Source of the DNA: Bacillus sp. ISL-37
GTDB lineage: Bacteria > Bacillota > Bacilli > Bacillales > Cytobacillaceae
NCBI RefSeq assembly: GCF_018613315.1
Contig: NZ_JAGGQL010000032.1
Coordinates: forward strand, 1 to 64,000
Direction of reading: 5' to 3'
Length of the DNA: 64,000 bases
Positions 1,893 through 23,234 of the stretch are shown here, piece after piece; position 1 is the first letter of the stretch; every line of letters begins with the position of its first letter. A program made the position numbers and the translations under genes. The notes under the pieces were generated by a model, which was given only the letters and a program-made list of their open reading frames with translations, did not search any database and had not been told where the DNA came from.

Positions 1893-3053
1893 TTACAGTG
1901 CTTCACTTGATTTACCAAATCCAACCTCATCTCTATGTGGATTTCTTTCTCCTGGTTTATTATTTTTCTTCCTTATACCTTTCTCACTTTTAATTTCTTT
2001 TTCAGCTTCAGTCACATCTAAATTATCAGTTTTTTCAATAAATCCAAGTTGAATATATAACTCATCCTCTTGATTTACAGAAGCATTATATTTCCTTTCT
2101 CCTTCAGAAGCTTCTTTTAGTAATTTGAGGCTTCTTCCTGGGGAAAGTTCATGGCACCTAAAATCTTCAATTGTTAATGTTTTGATATCTGGATTATTTC
2201 TAGTGACTACTTGATACGTTAGGTAGAGCCAGTCTTTTAGTATACCTATGCAACCTACACAACGACTATAAAAATAATCCCAATTACTAATTAAATCAGG
2301 TTCATTCTCTAAGGGCAAATGTTGTTGAAATGCTAACAATACATTAATAAATGATTTTAAATCCTCTTTATTATTAGCTTGATACCTTTTTACATGTACA
2401 TCCTTACCTCTTCTTATAGTTTGCCCATTCAAATCTCTGTACGTAATCAAATCATAATTACCAGTTAAAACTATAGGTACGTTTGTCAAGTTAGCTAATG
2501 ATTTCAAGATGTTTATTTGATTCCTAAGATTCCTACTATTTGTAGTCATACTTATATGCTGTGCCTCATCAATAAAAAAGGCTAAAGGTTTTCTGAAAAT
2601 TAATACATTCTCAAGAGACCTTCTAAGTGCCGCCTTACCATCATTTTTTAACTTTTTACTGTCTACTTCTATTTCTACATCCATTTTATAATCAATTAAG
2701 GGTTCTTCAGCCGCTTCTAAACATCTGTAATAAAAATCCTTCCAATCAAAACTCCCTGAATCAGGTGGTATGGCTTCAACATTCAATATTGGTAATAATC
2801 CTCTATTTTTTTGATAAAATCCAATGTTATCTGTTAACAATTTTTCCTGTACCTTTTCAATTAACTTAGACTTCCCTGCCCCTGCTGGTCCAAATACTAA
2901 GATAATTGAATTTTTACTACCATTATTGATCCTATCTATTAAATCATCATATGCTTCATCAAAGGCTGGATGAGAGACAGTGAAATTCCTGAAGTATTCA
3001 TGCCTAACTCCTATCACTTGATTTAGAAGTTCTTTTGGAAATAGCTGTCCCAT
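1893..3053 (-). CDS. tnsC: TnsC-like AAA+ ATPase transposition regulator
   Basis: TnsC is the ATP-dependent connector that loads on target DNA marked by TniQ/TnsD and activates TnsA and TnsB. Walker A GPAGAGKS is at residues 55-62 and Walker B FFIDEAQH at about 159-166, followed by sensor-like LTGNYD near 200. The length of 386 residues is in the shorter range for TnsC/TniB-type proteins. The C-terminus is charged and probably contacts its partners. The start ATG lies one base after the tnsAB stop, behind GGGAG, so the two are co-transcribed and probably translationally coupled. The next gene, tniQ, follows 92 bp downstream with a GC hairpin near 1855-1872 in the gap. Confidence 0.92.
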   Translation of the reverse strand: MGQLFPKELLNQVIGVRHEYFRNFTVSHPAFDEAYDDLIDRINNGSKNSIILVFGPAGAGKSKLIEKVQEKLLTDNIGFYQKNRGLLPILNVEAIPPDSGSFDWKDFYYRCLEAAEEPLIDYKMDVEIEVDSKKLKNDGKAALRRSLENVLIFRKPLAFFIDEAQHISMTTNSRNLRNQINILKSLANLTNVPIVLTGNYDLITYRDLNGQTIRRGKDVHVKRYQANNKEDLKSFINVLLAFQQHLPLENEPDLISNWDYFYSRCVGCIGILKDWLYLTYQVVTRNNPDIKTLTIEDFRCHELSPGRSLKLLKEASEGERKYNASVNQEDELYIQLGFIEKTDNLDVTEAEKEIKSEKGIRKKNNKPGERNPHRDEVGFGKSSEAL

Positions 3054-3054
3054 G

Positions 3055-5811
3055 TCATAACTCCCTATAAACCTTAAAAGAATTCTGCTCTTTCATTTCG
3101 TCAAGAATATCCTTATATGAAGCCTTCTCATTAGTGGGCTTAACAAGTACTAGTTCGGTTTCACCAATATTGATTTTTGAATCTGACTTGTTTTTGGTCT
3201 TATTTATAGGCGTTGTAGACTCTTTGTAACTAGTCTTTCCTCCTGAAATTACAGTTAGTGAGTTTTTAACGGCTTGATCTTTTAACTGCTGAATCTTTAG
3301 AACTTCGTATGCTTCGGCACTTTCTATAAATTCAATTATTTGAGAACTCGAAATATCGTTCTTTAATCCAAAAATTTTCTTTCTTCTTCTGAGTTCAGTA
3401 GTAGCTATCTTTAATTCTTTTTCAGTCCGGTTTTCTAATACTCCATAATGTTCTGAACTTAATTCAACCCAGTAATTATTAACGTATGCATATGCAACTC
3501 CCATATTAAAAGGGTCATATCTGACTGGAATCGATTTTCCTTCAATTTCTGGATGGAGTAGAATTTCTGAAAAATAATAAAAATGATTAATTTTTACACC
3601 TTGTCCAGCAATAACTTTCGCTGTTCCTTTCCTTGTTGATGGTAAAGTAAGCATTTTAAAGGTTTCATCATATTTAATATATGTGTTTTTCCGCTGTCCG
3701 GTTCTTGCTATTCTCTTTACATAGGTTTCTCTCGGACTTTCTCCTAGCGTGCTGTGTGGGTTATTATCATATACTTCGTAGTACCATTTTTCTAACATAA
3801 AGTTCAGGTCTTCGAGGGTCCAAATAGCATGGAGTTTTGGATTTACTTCTTTAGTAACTTGTCTAAAGTTTTTCATTATTTTTGTGTTTCCCAGTAAATT
3901 ATGTATGAACATTTCATTTGTTGTTCCGAAATGCCTTTCACAAACTGTCCCAAAACGTGGTTTAGCCCCCGGCCTTACTTTCTTCCCTATGCAATATCTT
4001 GCAATTAAAGTATCAAAATACACACTTTGAAAATCCTTCCCACCATCAACTATTATGGTATTTGGTAATTTAGAGTGTCTTCTAACGCATTCTCTCATTA
4101 CCATCATGCAGGACCGATAACTAGGTGGATCGAACGTTAGATAAAAAGCCAAAATTCTTCTAGAAAACGCATCAATCATTATACTAACCCATGGTTTTCC
4201 AAGATTTTCTTTGGTTTCAGAACAAACTAATTCAATATCTAATTCTGTATGATCAATATGACATATTTCAAATGGGCGATCCCCATGTCGAGGTGTTGTC
4301 ATACTGAGTTCATAATAGACTGGCTCAGTTTTATATGCTGATTTAGACCCCTCTCTATTTCTAGTTGTTATATGAATAGGCCGTTTCTCTAGTTCTTCAA
4401 GGAATGTAATAAAGCTTGGTGTAGCATAACCCTTATTTTCACATTCACTTTTAAAAGCTTTATAAACTGTATATGCTTTCTTTTGTTTAATTGTTTCGTA
4501 ATCATTAATGATGTAATGATTCATTAAATCGATTACTTGTTGTTGAAATCTTCTTGTTCGATTTCCTTGATTTTTCCTATTAGAGATAAGACCAACATAT
4601 CCATTCCCATAAGTTGTTTCCGCATCACGGTATTTCTTCATCCAATCCCTAATAGTCCGTTCTTTGGGTTCAAAATCAGAGTAATCGGCCCCATTTAACA
4701 TGCCTTGTACAACTAAATACCTTCTATTTGCTTCTTCAAGGTCTTTTTCATTAGCACTTCTTATGATATTATTTATTTCTTGTTCACTATCAGATTCTAT
4801 GTGTGCAACAATTTCTTTTATTGAACCTTCTCTAATTAAATTTTCAAATACCATCTTTGGCATTTCTGATATATTATCATTATTATTTAATAATGTTACT
4901 TCGTTTTCTCCTACATTAATTATTGTGCAAATATTTCCATCCCGATTTACCTTATTACCTATTTGAACATCCACGGTACTAGGCTTTAATAATAAGGGTT
5001 TGAAGGCTTTTTCTATATTATTATATGCCTCAAAATTATGTTTATTTAAAAAGATAGGAAATTTATCAAAATCAATTATTAAATAATTTGTGATATCTAC
5101 ATAAATTTCATCAAGTGCCATTAAAGTATAAATGTCATCTGCTGTATAAGAAGATTGGTCGTTAAGTAGTTCTTCTAACATAATTGAAGGTTTACTTTTT
5201 ATTAATTTCTTTATTATCATTGCTGCTTCGGAAGTTACAGAGGGGTTTTCATCTAAAAGATAATCCTCTAAGAATCTTATATTTCTTTGAAAAATCCAGT
5301 TAATTTCTTTGGAAGATCTTATTCTAAAAGAGAGACCAAATTGTTTTGCATATTCTTCTGCAGGAGGGCACCTCCATTCCCCATTCTCATCCTTCCTGTA
5401 CCGGTTAGAGTTTTTTTGAGACAATCTAATCAATTCTTCCTCAGTTTTCCACTCTTCCCAACCTATCCAATCGTTCTCAATTGTAAAGAAGTCAGCAGTA
5501 TACAAATGTCCTGTAGTTTTCTTCTTAAACCCTTCAGGTAAATCATACTTAATAGGAAAGGAAGGAGGCTGATCATAATATTCAATTACATTTGGGTCAT
5601 GTTCTTTCTCATAGATACCTGCCAGTTCTAATTTATGACTTTCAAATTGTATAGTAACCCCCATTTTCTTACTCGGATAGAAACCTGGTACATTAGCTCC
5701 ACTACTTTTTACTTTTCTAGAAGGTTGCGAATTCCTGATATTTTGAATGATCTTAAATGCAGCATTCCCAAATTTGTTTTCCAACCATTCATTAAATTCT
5801 ATACTTTTCAT
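3055..5811 (-). CDS. tnsAB: TnsA-TnsB fusion transposase
   Basis: TnsA cuts the 5' ends of the element and TnsB cuts and joins the 3' ends; here one chain carries both. The first about 170 residues are TnsA-like: an ESHKLE motif near 57-62, YTADFF (Asp near 107) and GWEEWK (Glu-x-Lys near 120-122), as in the TnsA restriction-fold active site. The rest is TnsB: a helix-turn-helix region, then an RNase-H-like integrase core with Asp in CHIDHTELD (near 520), Asp in IIVDGGKDF (near 589) and Glu in GTVCERHFG (near 625). ATG at 5811 fits the GGTGAT ribosome site seven bases upstream; starts at 5820 or 5823 would add three to four residues. A fused pair implies cut-and-paste movement. Confidence 0.92.
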   Translation of the reverse strand: MKSIEFNEWLENKFGNAAFKIIQNIRNSQPSRKVKSSGANVPGFYPSKKMGVTIQFESHKLELAGIYEKEHDPNVIEYYDQPPSFPIKYDLPEGFKKKTTGHLYTADFFTIENDWIGWEEWKTEEELIRLSQKNSNRYRKDENGEWRCPPAEEYAKQFGLSFRIRSSKEINWIFQRNIRFLEDYLLDENPSVTSEAAMIIKKLIKSKPSIMLEELLNDQSSYTADDIYTLMALDEIYVDITNYLIIDFDKFPIFLNKHNFEAYNNIEKAFKPLLLKPSTVDVQIGNKVNRDGNICTIINVGENEVTLLNNNDNISEMPKMVFENLIREGSIKEIVAHIESDSEQEINNIIRSANEKDLEEANRRYLVVQGMLNGADYSDFEPKERTIRDWMKKYRDAETTYGNGYVGLISNRKNQGNRTRRFQQQVIDLMNHYIINDYETIKQKKAYTVYKAFKSECENKGYATPSFITFLEELEKRPIHITTRNREGSKSAYKTEPVYYELSMTTPRHGDRPFEICHIDHTELDIELVCSETKENLGKPWVSIMIDAFSRRILAFYLTFDPPSYRSCMMVMRECVRRHSKLPNTIIVDGGKDFQSVYFDTLIARYCIGKKVRPGAKPRFGTVCERHFGTTNEMFIHNLLGNTKIMKNFRQVTKEVNPKLHAIWTLEDLNFMLEKWYYEVYDNNPHSTLGESPRETYVKRIARTGQRKNTYIKYDETFKMLTLPSTRKGTAKVIAGQGVKINHFYYFSEILLHPEIEGKSIPVRYDPFNMGVAYAYVNNYWVELSSEHYGVLENRTEKELKIATTELRRRKKIFGLKNDISSSQIIEFIESAEAYEVLKIQQLKDQAVKNSLTVISGGKTSYKESTTPINKTKNKSDSKINIGETELVLVKPTNEKASYKDILDEMKEQNSFKVYREL

Positions 5812-5888
5812 TTTATACATCACCCATTTAATAAGTTGAAGTTTGTATTGTCATTTTTCGATAAAATATGTAGTATATCCTTCTTTAA

Positions 5889-7205
5889 TCACATATTCTT
5901 TTTAATGTCTTTCCATACCTCTCTAAAATAACTCTCTTTTAAAAGAAAGTTGCCTCTTAGCTCTTTTTCTACATTTCTTCTACTTGGGTAAACATTTCTC
6001 TCTTTAAGTACATTAATCACTTCTATCAGTTGTTGATGAAAAGCCTTCTGTCTTTCAGTTTTCTTTAAGTCTAATTTGCTCTTGTAGTTTTCAACTATTT
6101 TTTTTGATTCATTCGGGAATTTTTGATATAACAATTTACGGTCGCAGTCAATCTTCTCAGCAATTTTAGTTAACGAGTTTTTTTCGGAACTATTTATTTC
6201 ATCAAGGAGAATATTTTTAATTTGACCATAATCGTATTTTTTTCTATCCTTAATTTTGTTAGCTGGTAACTTACTCATACTGGATTTTGCAATTGGAATT
6301 TGCTTAGATTGTAAAAACTCCCAAATACTAATTTCTAACACATTGCAAATCCTAATTAGACTATATAAAGGGGGCAAATTTATACCTCTTACCCAGTACC
6401 GAAAGGTTGTTGAAGGAATACCTAAGGTCTCAGCAAAATCTTTTATGTTGCCTTCAAATAATTCATCAAGATAATAATTTAGTGATTTGCAAATTTGAGT
6501 TTTATTTATATTTACTTTCTCACTTCCAGAACTGGTTTTTAACATTTCTCCAATCCTATCCTCTATATGAAGCGTTTCTCCTAAGTGTGGAATTTTATTG
6601 TTAAGATTTTCTTTATTGCTTCCGAGCCAACAATCACAATTATCACAAAAACCAGGTTTCGAATTTCTTGAAAGTATATTCATTTCCTTTGAACATTTTA
6701 TACACTTCGACACCAAAAAAGTTTTATGTATTAGACAATATTTACTTTCTTTTAAAAACCATATTAGAGGCTCATATATAATTGATGTATTATTTATAGC
6801 TTCTTGATAACAAAAAGGACACCATTTTTTCTTTGACTCTAAAAGACCTCTTGTCGGCAGAATGCCTGTCCAAGGAAGAAGTGTAGTCTTGCTAATATCT
6901 GATCTATAGGTTAATAACTCAATTACATTAACAAAATCACTAGCGAGGCTCCCTATCCCATTTATACCATTTGTACAATCGTAGAACCCATTCCCCCCTC
7001 TAGTTGCAATTGCAGATATATAGTGTTTTTTTAAATATGGGGCTAGCAACTTTGATATAAACACACCTGTTGATAAGCAATGATAATCCGATATACGAGA
7101 TATATAGCTCGTCAACGACTCAACTAATGGTGAATTCATACCTTGTGGTTCAATATTAAAAAGAGTACTCCTAGCAGAAATGTGATTTGATGTGAATTTA
7201 TTCAT
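5889..7205 (-). CDS. tniQ: TniQ/TnsD-family protein (second copy)
   Basis: This is a second target-selection protein, first gene of the transposition operon. It has the same layout as the copy at 436-1800: RSTLFNIEP near residue 12, ESLTSYISRI near 29, and zinc ligands CPFC at 129-132, C157/H160, CIKC at 168-171 and CDNC at 187-190. A helix-turn-helix lies near 255-300 and a second near 350, and the C-terminus is basic. The 438 residues start at an ATG six bases after AGGGG. The two copies share motifs but are clearly diverged. They may recognise different targets, or act together as a heteromer; the sequence does not decide between these. Confidence 0.88.
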   Translation of the reverse strand: MNKFTSNHISARSTLFNIEPQGMNSPLVESLTSYISRISDYHCLSTGVFISKLLAPYLKKHYISAIATRGGNGFYDCTNGINGIGSLASDFVNVIELLTYRSDISKTTLLPWTGILPTRGLLESKKKWCPFCYQEAINNTSIIYEPLIWFLKESKYCLIHKTFLVSKCIKCSKEMNILSRNSKPGFCDNCDCWLGSNKENLNNKIPHLGETLHIEDRIGEMLKTSSGSEKVNINKTQICKSLNYYLDELFEGNIKDFAETLGIPSTTFRYWVRGINLPPLYSLIRICNVLEISIWEFLQSKQIPIAKSSMSKLPANKIKDRKKYDYGQIKNILLDEINSSEKNSLTKIAEKIDCDRKLLYQKFPNESKKIVENYKSKLDLKKTERQKAFHQQLIEVINVLKERNVYPSRRNVEKELRGNFLLKESYFREVWKDIKKNM

Positions 7206-7588: not shown

Positions 7589-9085
7589 TTAAAGGAAGTA
7601 TGTAAAATAAATTGTAAGGATAGAAAGAAAGAAAACTTCGAAGAACCATAGCCAAGAAAATCTGTCTATTGTTTGTTTGACATTTTGTATACTATATTTT
7701 AAATGGCGCTTATGAAATAAATTATTAAGCTCTCTATGATCAAAAATGTCTCGATAAATCCTTTTGATAGAATAAAAATATCTAATGTTAATTTTAACAT
7801 CCTTTTTCAACTGGTTCCTAGTTATTAATAAATAGATCATGGATATGAGAAGAAATACCATTGATAAATAGTATTTTTCCTCTGTAAAGATTTTTTTATC
7901 ACTATTATCCGAAAGAGAATTGAAAATAAAAATCGATATAAAGTAAGTCAACAGTGTTAAGTTGTTATTTTTAAAGTTTGAAAGAAAGTATTCTGTAACA
8001 TCTTTACTTTTTACAGATAATTCGGTAGTAATTTCAGCAACTTTATTTTTCGTTTCTATATATTTCTCAACGTTCTCTTTTAAATAAATCGAATGTGCAG
8101 ATTGTATTGAACTTAAAGTATCATCTGGTAAAATCCACTTATTACCTACAACCTTAAAATTTCTCGAAATAATATTCCTTGATAAATCCAGTTTGTCATG
8201 AATATCTGAACTTTGGTAAACCCACTCATAAATTCCAAAAAAATTTTTAGAATCTGAATTATCAAGATTATCCAGGTTAGATACTACCTCTAAGTAGTTA
8301 TGACCGATAAACCCTAATTTGACGCTAGAGTGATCAGGTTTAATATCTGATATATTCGATAAAAAGGATGCAGCAAAAAGAATTTTTAATTTATCAAATA
8401 ACAAGTGGATTTCGTGACGGTTCACATTAATCGTTCTTATATCATTAAAATCATCAGGAATAAAGTTGAACTTTGAAAAACCTTGAGGATTGGTATTAAG
8501 GGACCTGCTTTTTAAAATTTTCGATCTTAGCTCCTGCTCCATTAAAGGTTGCTGAGCTAAATTGTCAATCGCTGATGAAGAAACTTTTATTATTGGACTT
8601 TGGAAAAATATATTCTCACTTTCTACATTCTGTACTTCATAATTATTATGAGTGTCTGTTCTTAGATTTTTTTGAAGGTAATTCAATAAGTGAAGTAATT
8701 TTTGTTCCTTTAAGAAGCTAGTAAACAAATCTAGATCATATATTGAAGTAGTCGTGTCGACCTTATTTTTTATAATCTTATATTCAAGAAAAACACTACT
8801 GTCTTTATCTATAATTTGATTTATGCTGCTAACGGTTTGAATATAGTATGCTTGTTCATCATTTAATTTAAAAAAATACGGCTCACCATCATTGACAATA
8901 ATATTTAAAGAGATTCTGTCTCGATCGTTAACATAATTTGAAATTTTCTTTAATACGCACCATTCTAAATCCTTAATAACATTTGTTAATTCAAAGGAAA
9001 GAGTATATTTTTCAAAGTCTTCTTCAACTTTTTTTATATTGACATTCGAAGTGAGCTCATAAAATAAGTTTAATACTCTTTCCAT
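7589..9085 (-). CDS. unknown cargo protein with C-terminal membrane segments
   Basis: I do not recognise this 498-residue protein. The first about 360 residues are soluble, acidic and low in cysteine, with no motif I can name. After that come two hydrophobic stretches (about 373-390, LTYFISIFIFNSL, and about 407-424, YYLSMVFLLISMIYLLIT) and a third that forms the extreme C-terminus (about 477-498). The bulk should face the cytoplasm with the tail in the membrane. It begins five bases after the stop of the NdpA-like gene, behind AGGAGG, so the two form a tight pair. A soluble sensor plus a membrane-anchored partner within transposon cargo resembles abortive-infection pairs, but that is inference. 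Confidence 0.75.
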   Translation of the reverse strand: MERVLNLFYELTSNVNIKKVEEDFEKYTLSFELTNVIKDLEWCVLKKISNYVNDRDRISLNIIVNDGEPYFFKLNDEQAYYIQTVSSINQIIDKDSSVFLEYKIIKNKVDTTTSIYDLDLFTSFLKEQKLLHLLNYLQKNLRTDTHNNYEVQNVESENIFFQSPIIKVSSSAIDNLAQQPLMEQELRSKILKSRSLNTNPQGFSKFNFIPDDFNDIRTINVNRHEIHLLFDKLKILFAASFLSNISDIKPDHSSVKLGFIGHNYLEVVSNLDNLDNSDSKNFFGIYEWVYQSSDIHDKLDLSRNIISRNFKVVGNKWILPDDTLSSIQSAHSIYLKENVEKYIETKNKVAEITTELSVKSKDVTEYFLSNFKNNNLTLLTYFISIFIFNSLSDNSDKKIFTEEKYYLSMVFLLISMIYLLITRNQLKKDVKINIRYFYSIKRIYRDIFDHRELNNLFHKRHLKYSIQNVKQTIDRFSWLWFFEVFFLSILTIYFTYFL

Positions 9086-9090
9086 TATTT

Positions 9091-10158
9091 TTAATCCTCC
9101 TGTCCTTTAAATGTATTATAAATATCTTCACTAATATTCCTAATTACTAAAATTTTGTTTCCATATTCAGGATCTTCCTTTGCAACAATTACATTTTTCA
9201 AATCCTCTATATAATCTGAAGTACGCAGTTCAATTTTTTCAGAAACTTTATAAGTACGTTTAAATCGCGCTTTAATTTGAGAACTCACAATGTTAAAGGA
9301 CGTATCGAAGTGGTTTTTTTCTGGCAACTTATTAAGTTTTTCTTTTAATTTACTAATGTCTATCTCTTGATTATCAGGCCTATACTCACCTATTACATAA
9401 TCAATCATGTCATCCAATCTAAATGACTGTCTAGTTTGAAAATAACCAACAAGGTTATTTCTTAGCTCGGTATAATCTCCTCTTGATTTCCTTTTCACAT
9501 AAGATGAAATTACATTTTCTATAGCTGTGAAAGCTGTTGTGGTGTTATGCTCATCTGAAGTTAATTCCTTTAGTTCCAAAAAGTCCTCAGACCAAAACAA
9601 TGATATCTTTGGTTTAGTATCACTTACAATTATACTTGCTATTTCGTACTTATCATCAACCAAATGATAAGAAATACTACATGTTTTTTGTGTTGCCTTC
9701 TCGTCTGGTAAACCGGACTTATAAAGAGCATCTTCTAAATTCAAAAATATAGCTTGGTCAATTTTTGAAAGCAAAATATTTATTTTATCATTTTGTTTTT
9801 GAAATACAACTACTAAACTACCATTTTTAGGTGGGTTTATACCCGGATGCCTTTGAGCTACTTTTTGTTGAACATCGAGTAATCTTTCTGCCAATAAATC
9901 AGTCTTAGCCTCAAACGTTGAATTAAAGTTAGGATTATCAACGTTATTCACCAGATCATTTACTATTTGAGCAACCTCAGAGGATTCCCTGCTAAATTTA
10001 AAACTTCTTTTATTTGCTGCTGATAAATCTTGCATGAATAACTTATTCGTAAATTGTTCAAAGTCAGTTGTGATAACGTTAACTTTATTTGGAGTAGTTA
10101 GGGAATTATCAATATGGTGTACGGTAAATAAGAGGGTTTGGTGTCCGGTAATACTCAT
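9091..10158 (-). CDS. NdpA/YejK-like (NA37) nucleoid-associated family protein
   Basis: The 355 residues follow the order of features I know from the 37-kDa nucleoid-associated protein family: a central NGSLVVV strand near 130, ILLSKIDQ near 148, FWSEDFLELKEL near 190, a helix with LRNNLVGYFQ near 230, and a C-terminal domain ending in a short strand. Classical members bind nucleoids in Gram-negative bacteria, and a DNA-binding role here is only suggested. No catalytic residues are evident. It is first in a two-gene operon with the membrane-tailed protein at 7589-9085. Family assignment is by pattern memory, not search, so it is moderate. The start ATG is at 10158. Confidence 0.6.
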   Translation of the reverse strand: MSITGHQTLLFTVHHIDNSLTTPNKVNVITTDFEQFTNKLFMQDLSAANKRSFKFSRESSEVAQIVNDLVNNVDNPNFNSTFEAKTDLLAERLLDVQQKVAQRHPGINPPKNGSLVVVFQKQNDKINILLSKIDQAIFLNLEDALYKSGLPDEKATQKTCSISYHLVDDKYEIASIIVSDTKPKISLFWSEDFLELKELTSDEHNTTTAFTAIENVISSYVKRKSRGDYTELRNNLVGYFQTRQSFRLDDMIDYVIGEYRPDNQEIDISKLKEKLNKLPEKNHFDTSFNIVSSQIKARFKRTYKVSEKIELRTSDYIEDLKNVIVAKEDPEYGNKILVIRNISEDIYNTFKGQED

Positions 10159-21958: not shown

Positions 21959-21991
21959 AAATAAAAATCCACCAACATATGTATTGGTGGA
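21959..21991 (-). terminator. ssrA: tmRNA terminator overlapping the CCA end
   Basis: On the minus strand TCCACCAA (containing the encoded CCA) pairs with TTGGTGGA across an eight-base loop and is followed by TTTTTATTTT. The mature 3' end therefore forms one arm of the terminator. The transposon sits directly downstream and leaves the hairpin and T-run intact. Confidence 0.8.
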
Positions 21992-22616
21992 GACGGTGGG
22001 ACGTGCTATTCCATGCTTTCGTCATGGCACTGACTATATCTTGAACCTGTTTTACCAGGTCCTCCGGCGTATTATGCGAGATGTAGTTTTACCCGGACTC
22101 CCGGATCGATCACGCATCCTAGTACTGCCAGGTTGGCAGCCTATAAGTCGATACATGGCTGTTGGATTGCTCCACATACCACTCGGCATTGCCCTATCGC
22201 TATTCGCGACTTAGGTTTCACCGATAAAGCCGGATTTTCACTTGCGTGTTGCCACACAAGGCGACTAATTACTAATCGAACCCACGTCCAAAGATATTGG
22301 CACTTAAGCTTCTACGAGTGTAGTCGGCATATTGGCGATTCGCTGGTCCTTTTGCCTACCGACAGGCGGCCGGCCAGCTAGCCTGGTTGTTCTCTTCCTT
22401 CATCCTCAGGCGGTGGAATCCGGCGTAGCCCACTTAGAGTGAGTCCGCTACCCTACCACATGGGCGATGGAGGGGCGAACCGCTATGCAGTATTAAGCTG
22501 CGAAAGCGAAGTTGTTGTTTTGTTTGCCAGTTATAGGCGTTGACGTTTTTACGAGGCCGATCCCCTCGACTCGCCACCTAAGCTCAAACTACCCCTGTCG
22601 AATCCGTAACGTCCCC
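21985..22616 (-). ncRNA. ssrA: tmRNA gene (ssrA), split by a group I intron
   Basis: tmRNA rescues stalled ribosomes and adds a degradation tag. The 5' end GGGGACG (22616) pairs with CGTCTCC before the encoded CCA (ending 21985). The core ACGGATTCGACAGGG, the pseudoknot region and CGCCGGATTCCACCGCC are Bacillus-like. The tag frame (22528-22493) reads GKQNNNFAFAA and stops at TAA, so the full tag is A plus these eleven residues. The tRNA-like T-loop is interrupted after TTCGAT (22275) and resumes at TCCCACC (22001). Splicing would restore GTGGG-TTCGATT-CCCAC and give about 359 nt. SmpB, its protein partner, is encoded immediately upstream. Confidence 0.93.
22002..22274 (-). mobile_element. group I intron in the tmRNA T-loop (273 nt, no ORF)
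   Basis: The minus strand between the two T-loop halves carries the group I S-element CAAGATATAGTC (around 22032-22043), the 3' strand of P7. A P1 helix forms between the 5' exon CGAU (22278-22275) and the internal guide GUCG (22265-22262), with the required U-G wobble at the splice site. The intron ends in G (22002), as group I introns do. Several strong helices fill the middle. It has no homing endonuclease frame, so it can splice but not spread by itself. Class I RNA folding by eye is approximate; the boundaries are set by restoring the T-loop. Confidence 0.9.
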
Positions 22617-22766: not shown

Positions 22767-23234
22767 TTACATTTTCTGACGTTCGCGGAATGCACGCTCG
22801 ATATCACGGCCTGCTTCCTTCTTCTTCAAAGTTTCACGCTTGTCATAGTTCTTTTTACCCTTACCTAGACCGATTAAAACCTTTGCAAAGCCATTTTTTA
22901 AATAGAGCTTTAACGGTACTAGCGCATAACCCGCTTCCTTCGTTTCGCCGATTAACTGGGCAATCTGGCGTTTGTGCAGTAGCAGCTTCCTCGTCCTTAA
23001 GGGCTCATGGTTATAGCGGTTTCCTTGTTCATAAGGACTGATATGCATATTGTATAAATACATTTCACCGTTATGGACCCTGGCATATGAGTCTTTCAGT
23101 TGGACACGGCCGCCACGAATTGCTTTAATCTCAGTACCCTGGAGGACAATACCTGCTTCATATGTGTCTTCAATAAAATAATCGTGGTTCGCCTTTTTGT
23201 TTTGCGCGACGACTTTCCCTTCACCTCTTGGCAT
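22767..23234 (-). CDS. smpB: SsrA-binding protein SmpB
   Basis: SmpB binds the tRNA-like domain of tmRNA and delivers it to stalled ribosomes. The 155 residues show the family features: an N-terminal [28 protein letters not shown] block, the conserved [10 protein letters not shown] and HISPYEQGN, and a basic C-terminal tail ([20 protein letters not shown]) that enters the decoding centre. Length is typical. It follows rnr on the same strand and precedes ssrA, the normal Bacillus order, so both partners of trans-translation are adjacent. Confidence 0.97.

Follow-up and report, generated by a model that had tools for sequence, protein, structure and literature searches.

Group I introns in the T-loop of tmRNA were reportedly first described by Williams in 2002, and a 2003 paper by Williams is said to deal with integration at tmRNA. 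In their 2025 survey (PMC11915505), Nawrocki, Petrov and Williams count 883 unique tmRNA genes with an intron, from 21 phyla and for the most part from Bacillota, with all 883 introns situated in the T-psi-C loop, most of them at loop position 7, with homing endonuclease genes in 36 of the 883 introns and with a mean length of 293 bp in the 843 founding introns. The intron described here, located in a stretch of 64,000 nt from Bacillus sp. ISL-37 (the window), shares with these position-7 introns the host gene, the loop, a U at -1 paired with G, the terminal G, the length class (273 nt in the window), the Bacillota host and a size too short for an endonuclease gene. Against the available sections of PMC11915505, from whose Fig. 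2 legend the loop numbering behind the position-7 assignment was deduced, no difference of substance was found. Within Bacillaceae, group I introns also interrupt the flagellin, recA and nrdE genes of Bacillus, in host genes and at sites other than here (PMC3984707). The 21 phyla of the survey, together with an occurrence in about half of 193 family genomes, contradict the preliminary description of this DNA, in which such introns were held to be known in few bacteria and phages. The tmRNA T-loop intron is already known and common in the family, and a single case adds little.

The tmRNA gene of the window and its parts were delimited as follows.

22616..21985, minus strand: tmRNA gene (ssrA), intron included, 632 nt, starting with GGGGACG and ending with CCA
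22275..22616, minus strand: ssrA 5' exon, 342 nt, containing the acceptor 5' strand, the pseudoknot domain, the tag frame and the 5' side of the T-arm up to TTCGAT (RF00023, 158.7 bits, E 1.2e-62 over 22608-22273; ends taken from the sequence)
22493..22528, minus strand: tag frame for proteolysis, with stop, translation GKQNNNFAFAA*
22002..22274, minus strand: group I intron, 273 nt, after nucleotide 6 of the 7-nt T-loop (TTCGAT), based on profile, covariation and RF00028
21985..22001, minus strand: ssrA 3' exon, 17 nt, with the last T-loop base, the T-stem 3' strand, the acceptor 3' strand and CCA, read from the sequence

Read on the minus strand, the 5' exon terminates in ...GTGGGTTCGAT at 22275 and the 3' exon (22001..21985) reads TCCCACCGTCTCCACCA. 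The T-arm thereby runs in the order GTGGG TTCGAT, 273 nt, T CCCAC, with the insertion site, as counted on the sequence, between loop nucleotides 6 and 7; joined without the 273 nt, the exons restore both T-loop and T-stem (GTGGG TTCGAT/T CCCAC), in agreement with the uninterrupted alleles of relatives. The acceptor stem was read as 7 bp (GGGGACG/CGTCTCC) with a G.U at the third pair, G3.U70 being the alanine identity element. A putative smpB, named from its sequence, adjoins upstream (23234..22767).

For a comparison of this intron with its relatives, an exact 20-mer from its 3' part was searched against genome_contigs, revealing at least 118 stretches; among the 118 matches listed, most bore Bacillaceae titles and a few belonged to Clostridia. 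A total of 135 introns was cut out, originating from 109 of the 118 listed stretches and from 26 genome loci, with some loci represented twice and 125 introns being unique; in the nine other listed stretches, the intron was too near the stretch end. The extracted introns measured 270-430 nt. All 135 were preceded by GGTTCGAT, with T at -1 throughout even though the extraction rule permitted T or C, while the 3' flank was TCCC in 134 cases and GCCC in one under a rule demanding T or G followed by CCC. The recurrence of the terminal G is no test, as the rule required it. The final alignment comprised 91 introns of at most 300 nt and below 93% mutual identity, four unique introns above 300 nt having been dropped.

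A profile made from this alignment minus its two rows from the window's genus (89 rows) matched exactly 22274-22002 with E 1.7e-84 and gave no match on the reversed window. Single-sequence folding yielded a z of -3.78, with none of 200 shuffles being as stable. The S-element CAAGATATAGTC is present in the intron, and its terminal nucleotide at 22002 is G. The insert in the tmRNA T-loop is a group I intron, real and well built. The intron type, the T-loop site and the boundaries had been proposed in the preliminary description, along with a U-G wobble in P1, the S-element and the terminal G; the exact profile match, the covariation in 91 introns and the uninterrupted alleles bear out the former, and the latter three were found as claimed, the wobble in 91 of 91 rows.

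The fold was drawn by hand and included P1, P2, P3, P4, P5, P5a, P6, P6a, P7, P7.1, P7.2, P7.2a, P8, P9.0, P9 and the T-stem. Its main elements are listed below, with the share of paired cells in the 91 introns.

22262..22278, minus strand: P1, exon CGAU (22278-22275) followed by UA with UAGUCG (22267-22262), 99.8% of cells paired
22229..22234, minus strand: P3 5' strand UCCGGC, 6 pairs, 100% of cells paired, 4 of 6 pairs changing on both sides
22063..22068, minus strand: P3 3' strand GCCGGA, on the same basis as the 5' strand
22146..22149, minus strand: P7 5' strand GACU, invariant in 91 rows
22032..22035, minus strand: P7 3' strand AGUC inside CAAGATATAGTC, invariant
22074..22139, minus strand: region of P7.1 (99.1% of cells paired) and P7.2 (100%), between the P7 5' strand and the P3 3' strand
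22045..22060, minus strand: P8 hairpin, 96.9% of cells paired, 3 of 5 pairs changing on both sides
22002..22030, minus strand: P9.0/P9 (95.3% and 94.2% of cells paired) with the terminal G (22002)

Across the 91 introns, 95.8% of 6684 cells were paired, compared with a mean of 90.4% for shuffled controls and 31.7-39.6% for slid controls, the latter being at a disadvantage because the window sequence itself served as the template for drawing the fold. Pairs changed on both sides numbered 39 of 74 (shuffled 21.2, slid 8-14) and cells changed on both sides 418 (shuffled 103.7, slid 22-91). Covarying pairs were also found in P4 (one), P6 (two) and P8 (three), and three pairs each change on both sides in P7.1 and P7.2. 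The P3/P7 pseudoknot was recovered around the core of P4-P6 and P8, where P7 pairs in all 91 rows and, being invariant, is compatible with the fold and neutral with regard to covariation. As drawn, P5 (76.4% paired) and the inner P7.2a (57.7%) are weakly supported, and no P10 pairing was seen by eye. A P7.1/P7.2 insert beside P7 is the mark of the IA-type subgroup.

The general Rfam model behaved differently. RF00028 (Intron_gpI) matched 22011-22284 with 37.0 bits and E 1.1e-7 in 901 bases, which is below its gathering score of 50, a library threshold and not a biological definition; the intron is therefore absent from the default Rfam scan list. A covariance score below threshold had been named beforehand as a finding that would refute the intron, and formally the score is such a finding, whereas the E-value is still significant. 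The window intron and the model have in common P1, the P3-P9 core and the S-element AAGAUAUAGUC, but the model alignment places the P3 3' strand directly after P7, where the window intron carries P7.1 and P7.2. This placement, about 70 nt too early, was rejected because UCCGGC finds a perfect and covarying partner in GCCGGA, a strand located about 70 nt beyond that position; the misplacement probably explains much of the low score. In view of the E-value, the misplaced P3 and the strong covariation and profile evidence, the low score was not regarded as refuting the intron.

The tmRNA model was likewise only partly satisfied: RF00023 recognised the 5' part of the gene with 158.7 bits and stopped at the T-loop, so that 15 consensus positions before the final A, belonging to the T-arm and the acceptor on the 3' side, stayed empty. 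ARAGORN, run over the window, reported no tmRNA, its sole report being a tRNA-Arg. With ARAGORN silent, RF00023 partial and RF00028 under threshold, the locus cleanly illustrates how genes of this kind escape annotation.

Taking these data together, we consider it about 97% probable that a short group I intron has inserted in the tmRNA T-loop, from which it would be spliced out to restore the gene. The low RF00028 score would also suit a degenerate, non-splicing intron in a strain without a working tmRNA. Yet the U.G at the splice site, the S-element and the terminal G are intact, all drawn helices form in the window copy (the very sequence on which they were drawn), and tmRNA and intron copies of 90-99% identity are present in 12 other genomes of the genus, making such decay very improbable. 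Less probable still is an insertion of another kind, be it a mobile element or an assembly artefact, whose removal would restore the gene by chance. No point in its support was found, while in 23 of the 60 genomes that could be resolved this site carries an insert of the same family, which recurs in the 109 stretches with both boundaries readable among the 118 matches listed, and its group I fold covaries.

The steps of splicing can be predicted by analogy with established group I introns, as can the dependence of tmRNA function on splicing; a tmRNA that would be useless before splicing, as proposed in the preliminary description, is what the anatomy predicts. In P1, exon CGAU would pair with intron GUCG and set the splice-site U.G. 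The core of P3-P9 would bind guanosine and cut after this U, whereupon the free 3' end of the exon would attack just behind the terminal G and TTCGAT would be joined to TCCCACC. The 7-nt T-loop, the T-stem and the acceptor stem would be restored by this joining. In the precursor, the complementary T-stem strands of the exons, GUGGG and CCCAC, could hold both sites together.

The distribution of the intron was determined in the window's genome and 60 relatives, where the T-loop was readable in 60; no call was made for one genome (G051), in which the contig ends at the match. The intron was present in 23 of the 60 and the gene was uninterrupted, with exons directly joined, in 37; within the window's genus (n = 21), 13 genomes had the intron and 8 were uninterrupted. 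The base at -1 was T in 23 of 23 intron-bearing genes, compared with C in 32 and T in 5 of the 37 uninterrupted ones. In the 8 uninterrupted congeners, the same 17-nt 3' exon directly follows TTCGAC, TTCGAT or TTCAAC. One of them (G002) reads TTCGATTCCCACCGTCTCCACCA, which, over the T-arm and the 3' end, equals what splicing is predicted to yield in the window; C stands at -1 in the remaining seven, with G007 reading TTCAAC. The co-occurrence of both alleles in one genus and the diagnostic base at -1 would make gain, loss and any cost of the intron testable between close relatives.

In the wider family, intron end and 3' exon were matched in 118 of 193 genomes, leaving 75 without a match. Since 12 of the 118 match only near the 3' exon and the terminator, 106 remain, and since the piece in G031 is displaced, about 105 of 193 are genomes with the intron's 3' end, a count based in most of them on this 3' part of the gene. 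Intron and tmRNA distances were correlated with a Mantel r of 0.415 (0 of 999 permutations as high) in 117 of the 135 introns, after removal of five repeat loci, of introns above 300 nt and of any locus lacking the 5' motif of tmRNA. This moderate correlation fits mostly common descent, with transfers still possible. The nearest named relative in this comparison was Bacillus sp. ISL-55, at a distance of 0 for the tmRNA body and 0.026 for the intron. A tree of the species, built from the DNA preceding the tmRNA, retained only 1589 of 7969 columns and had one branch of length 6.5; it was therefore set aside as a basis for counting intron gains and losses.

Displaced intron ends were encountered in two genomes with uninterrupted tmRNA. 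In G002, where the T-loop reads TTCGATTCCC, a decayed intron end with 3' exon and terminator lies about 4.9 kb downstream; this stray piece, AAAGCATGAATAGCACTTCACCATCTCCACCA plus the tmRNA terminator, agrees at 59 of 64 positions with the intron end, 3' exon and terminator of the window. In G031, 60 nt of intron end with 3' exon, 98% identical, were located on another contig (C50), 250 bp from a second bare T-arm with CCA. Both stray ends are compatible with an incoming element that supplied an uninterrupted T-arm and took the place of the 3' portion in a gene with the intron. That tmRNA introns of Bacillaceae are lost in this way, with elements integrating at the tmRNA gene supplying both an intact T-arm and a 3' end and displacing the 3' half of the intron downstream, is a tentative idea to which we give rather less than even odds. 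The T at -1 in 5 uninterrupted genes could be a trace left by an intron since lost. The case for a fresh island in G002 could not be made: inspection by eye of the listed ORFs (translations to 200 residues) revealed no integrase, and DNA 74% identical to 3.4 kb of the intervening segment follows the tmRNA of G003, which bears the intron. Both observations also speak against the replacement. No discussion of intron loss was found in the available portion of PMC11915505, and the displaced intron ends of G002 and G031 may be new.

Directly downstream of the tmRNA, the window contains a Tn7-like transposon, comprising the following features.

about 215-21956 (approximate ends): Tn7-like transposon
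436-1800: TniQ
1893-3053: TnsC-like ATPase
3055-5823: TnsA/TnsB fusion (TnsAB)
5889-7205: second TniQ

Its cargo includes a type I restriction-modification pair (defence) as well as a large protein that has a NO VEIN domain at its C-terminus and matches sacsin weakly, below threshold; two cargo proteins beside the transposition genes (498 and 355 aa, 7589-10158) had no Pfam match at E 0.001. The right end begins 28 nt after the CCA of the tmRNA, with repeats behind it. In 21 of 60 genomes, namely 10 of 23 with the intron and 11 of 37 without, a similar end, defined by a motif rule written after the ends had been seen and without a chance control, was detected 27-31 nt downstream of the CCA. 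The arrangement suggests a Tn7-like element that may home to tmRNA. A dependence of the element on the intron was considered and dropped, as the ends follow both alleles; the recognised sequence would accordingly have to be common to both, such as the 3' exon and terminator. When 18 neighbouring loci were tested by tblastn, genes of the window's Tn7-like element were recovered in only four, those of G001, G004, G005 and G008. The words tmRNA and ssrA were absent from the main text of the Tn7-like element papers searched. A second right-end-like sequence (TTATGCTTAAAGTCACACA) occupies 167-213, directly before the left end of the element, on a contig that starts at base 1 of the window; it looks as if two Tn7-like elements might stand in tandem behind the tmRNA.

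Outside the window, two further loci of the same genome gave group I matches. At G000:C48:4369-4636 (L163), a match of 46.2 bits, below the cut-off, comes after a ribonucleotide-reductase-like frame and is followed by an HNH-like frame, both named from sequence. Group I introns of flagellin genes are known (PMC3984707). At G000:C26:181654-182460 (L161), two group I matches of 75.2 and 91.9 bits lie between the two pieces of a split reading frame, named flagellin from its sequence.
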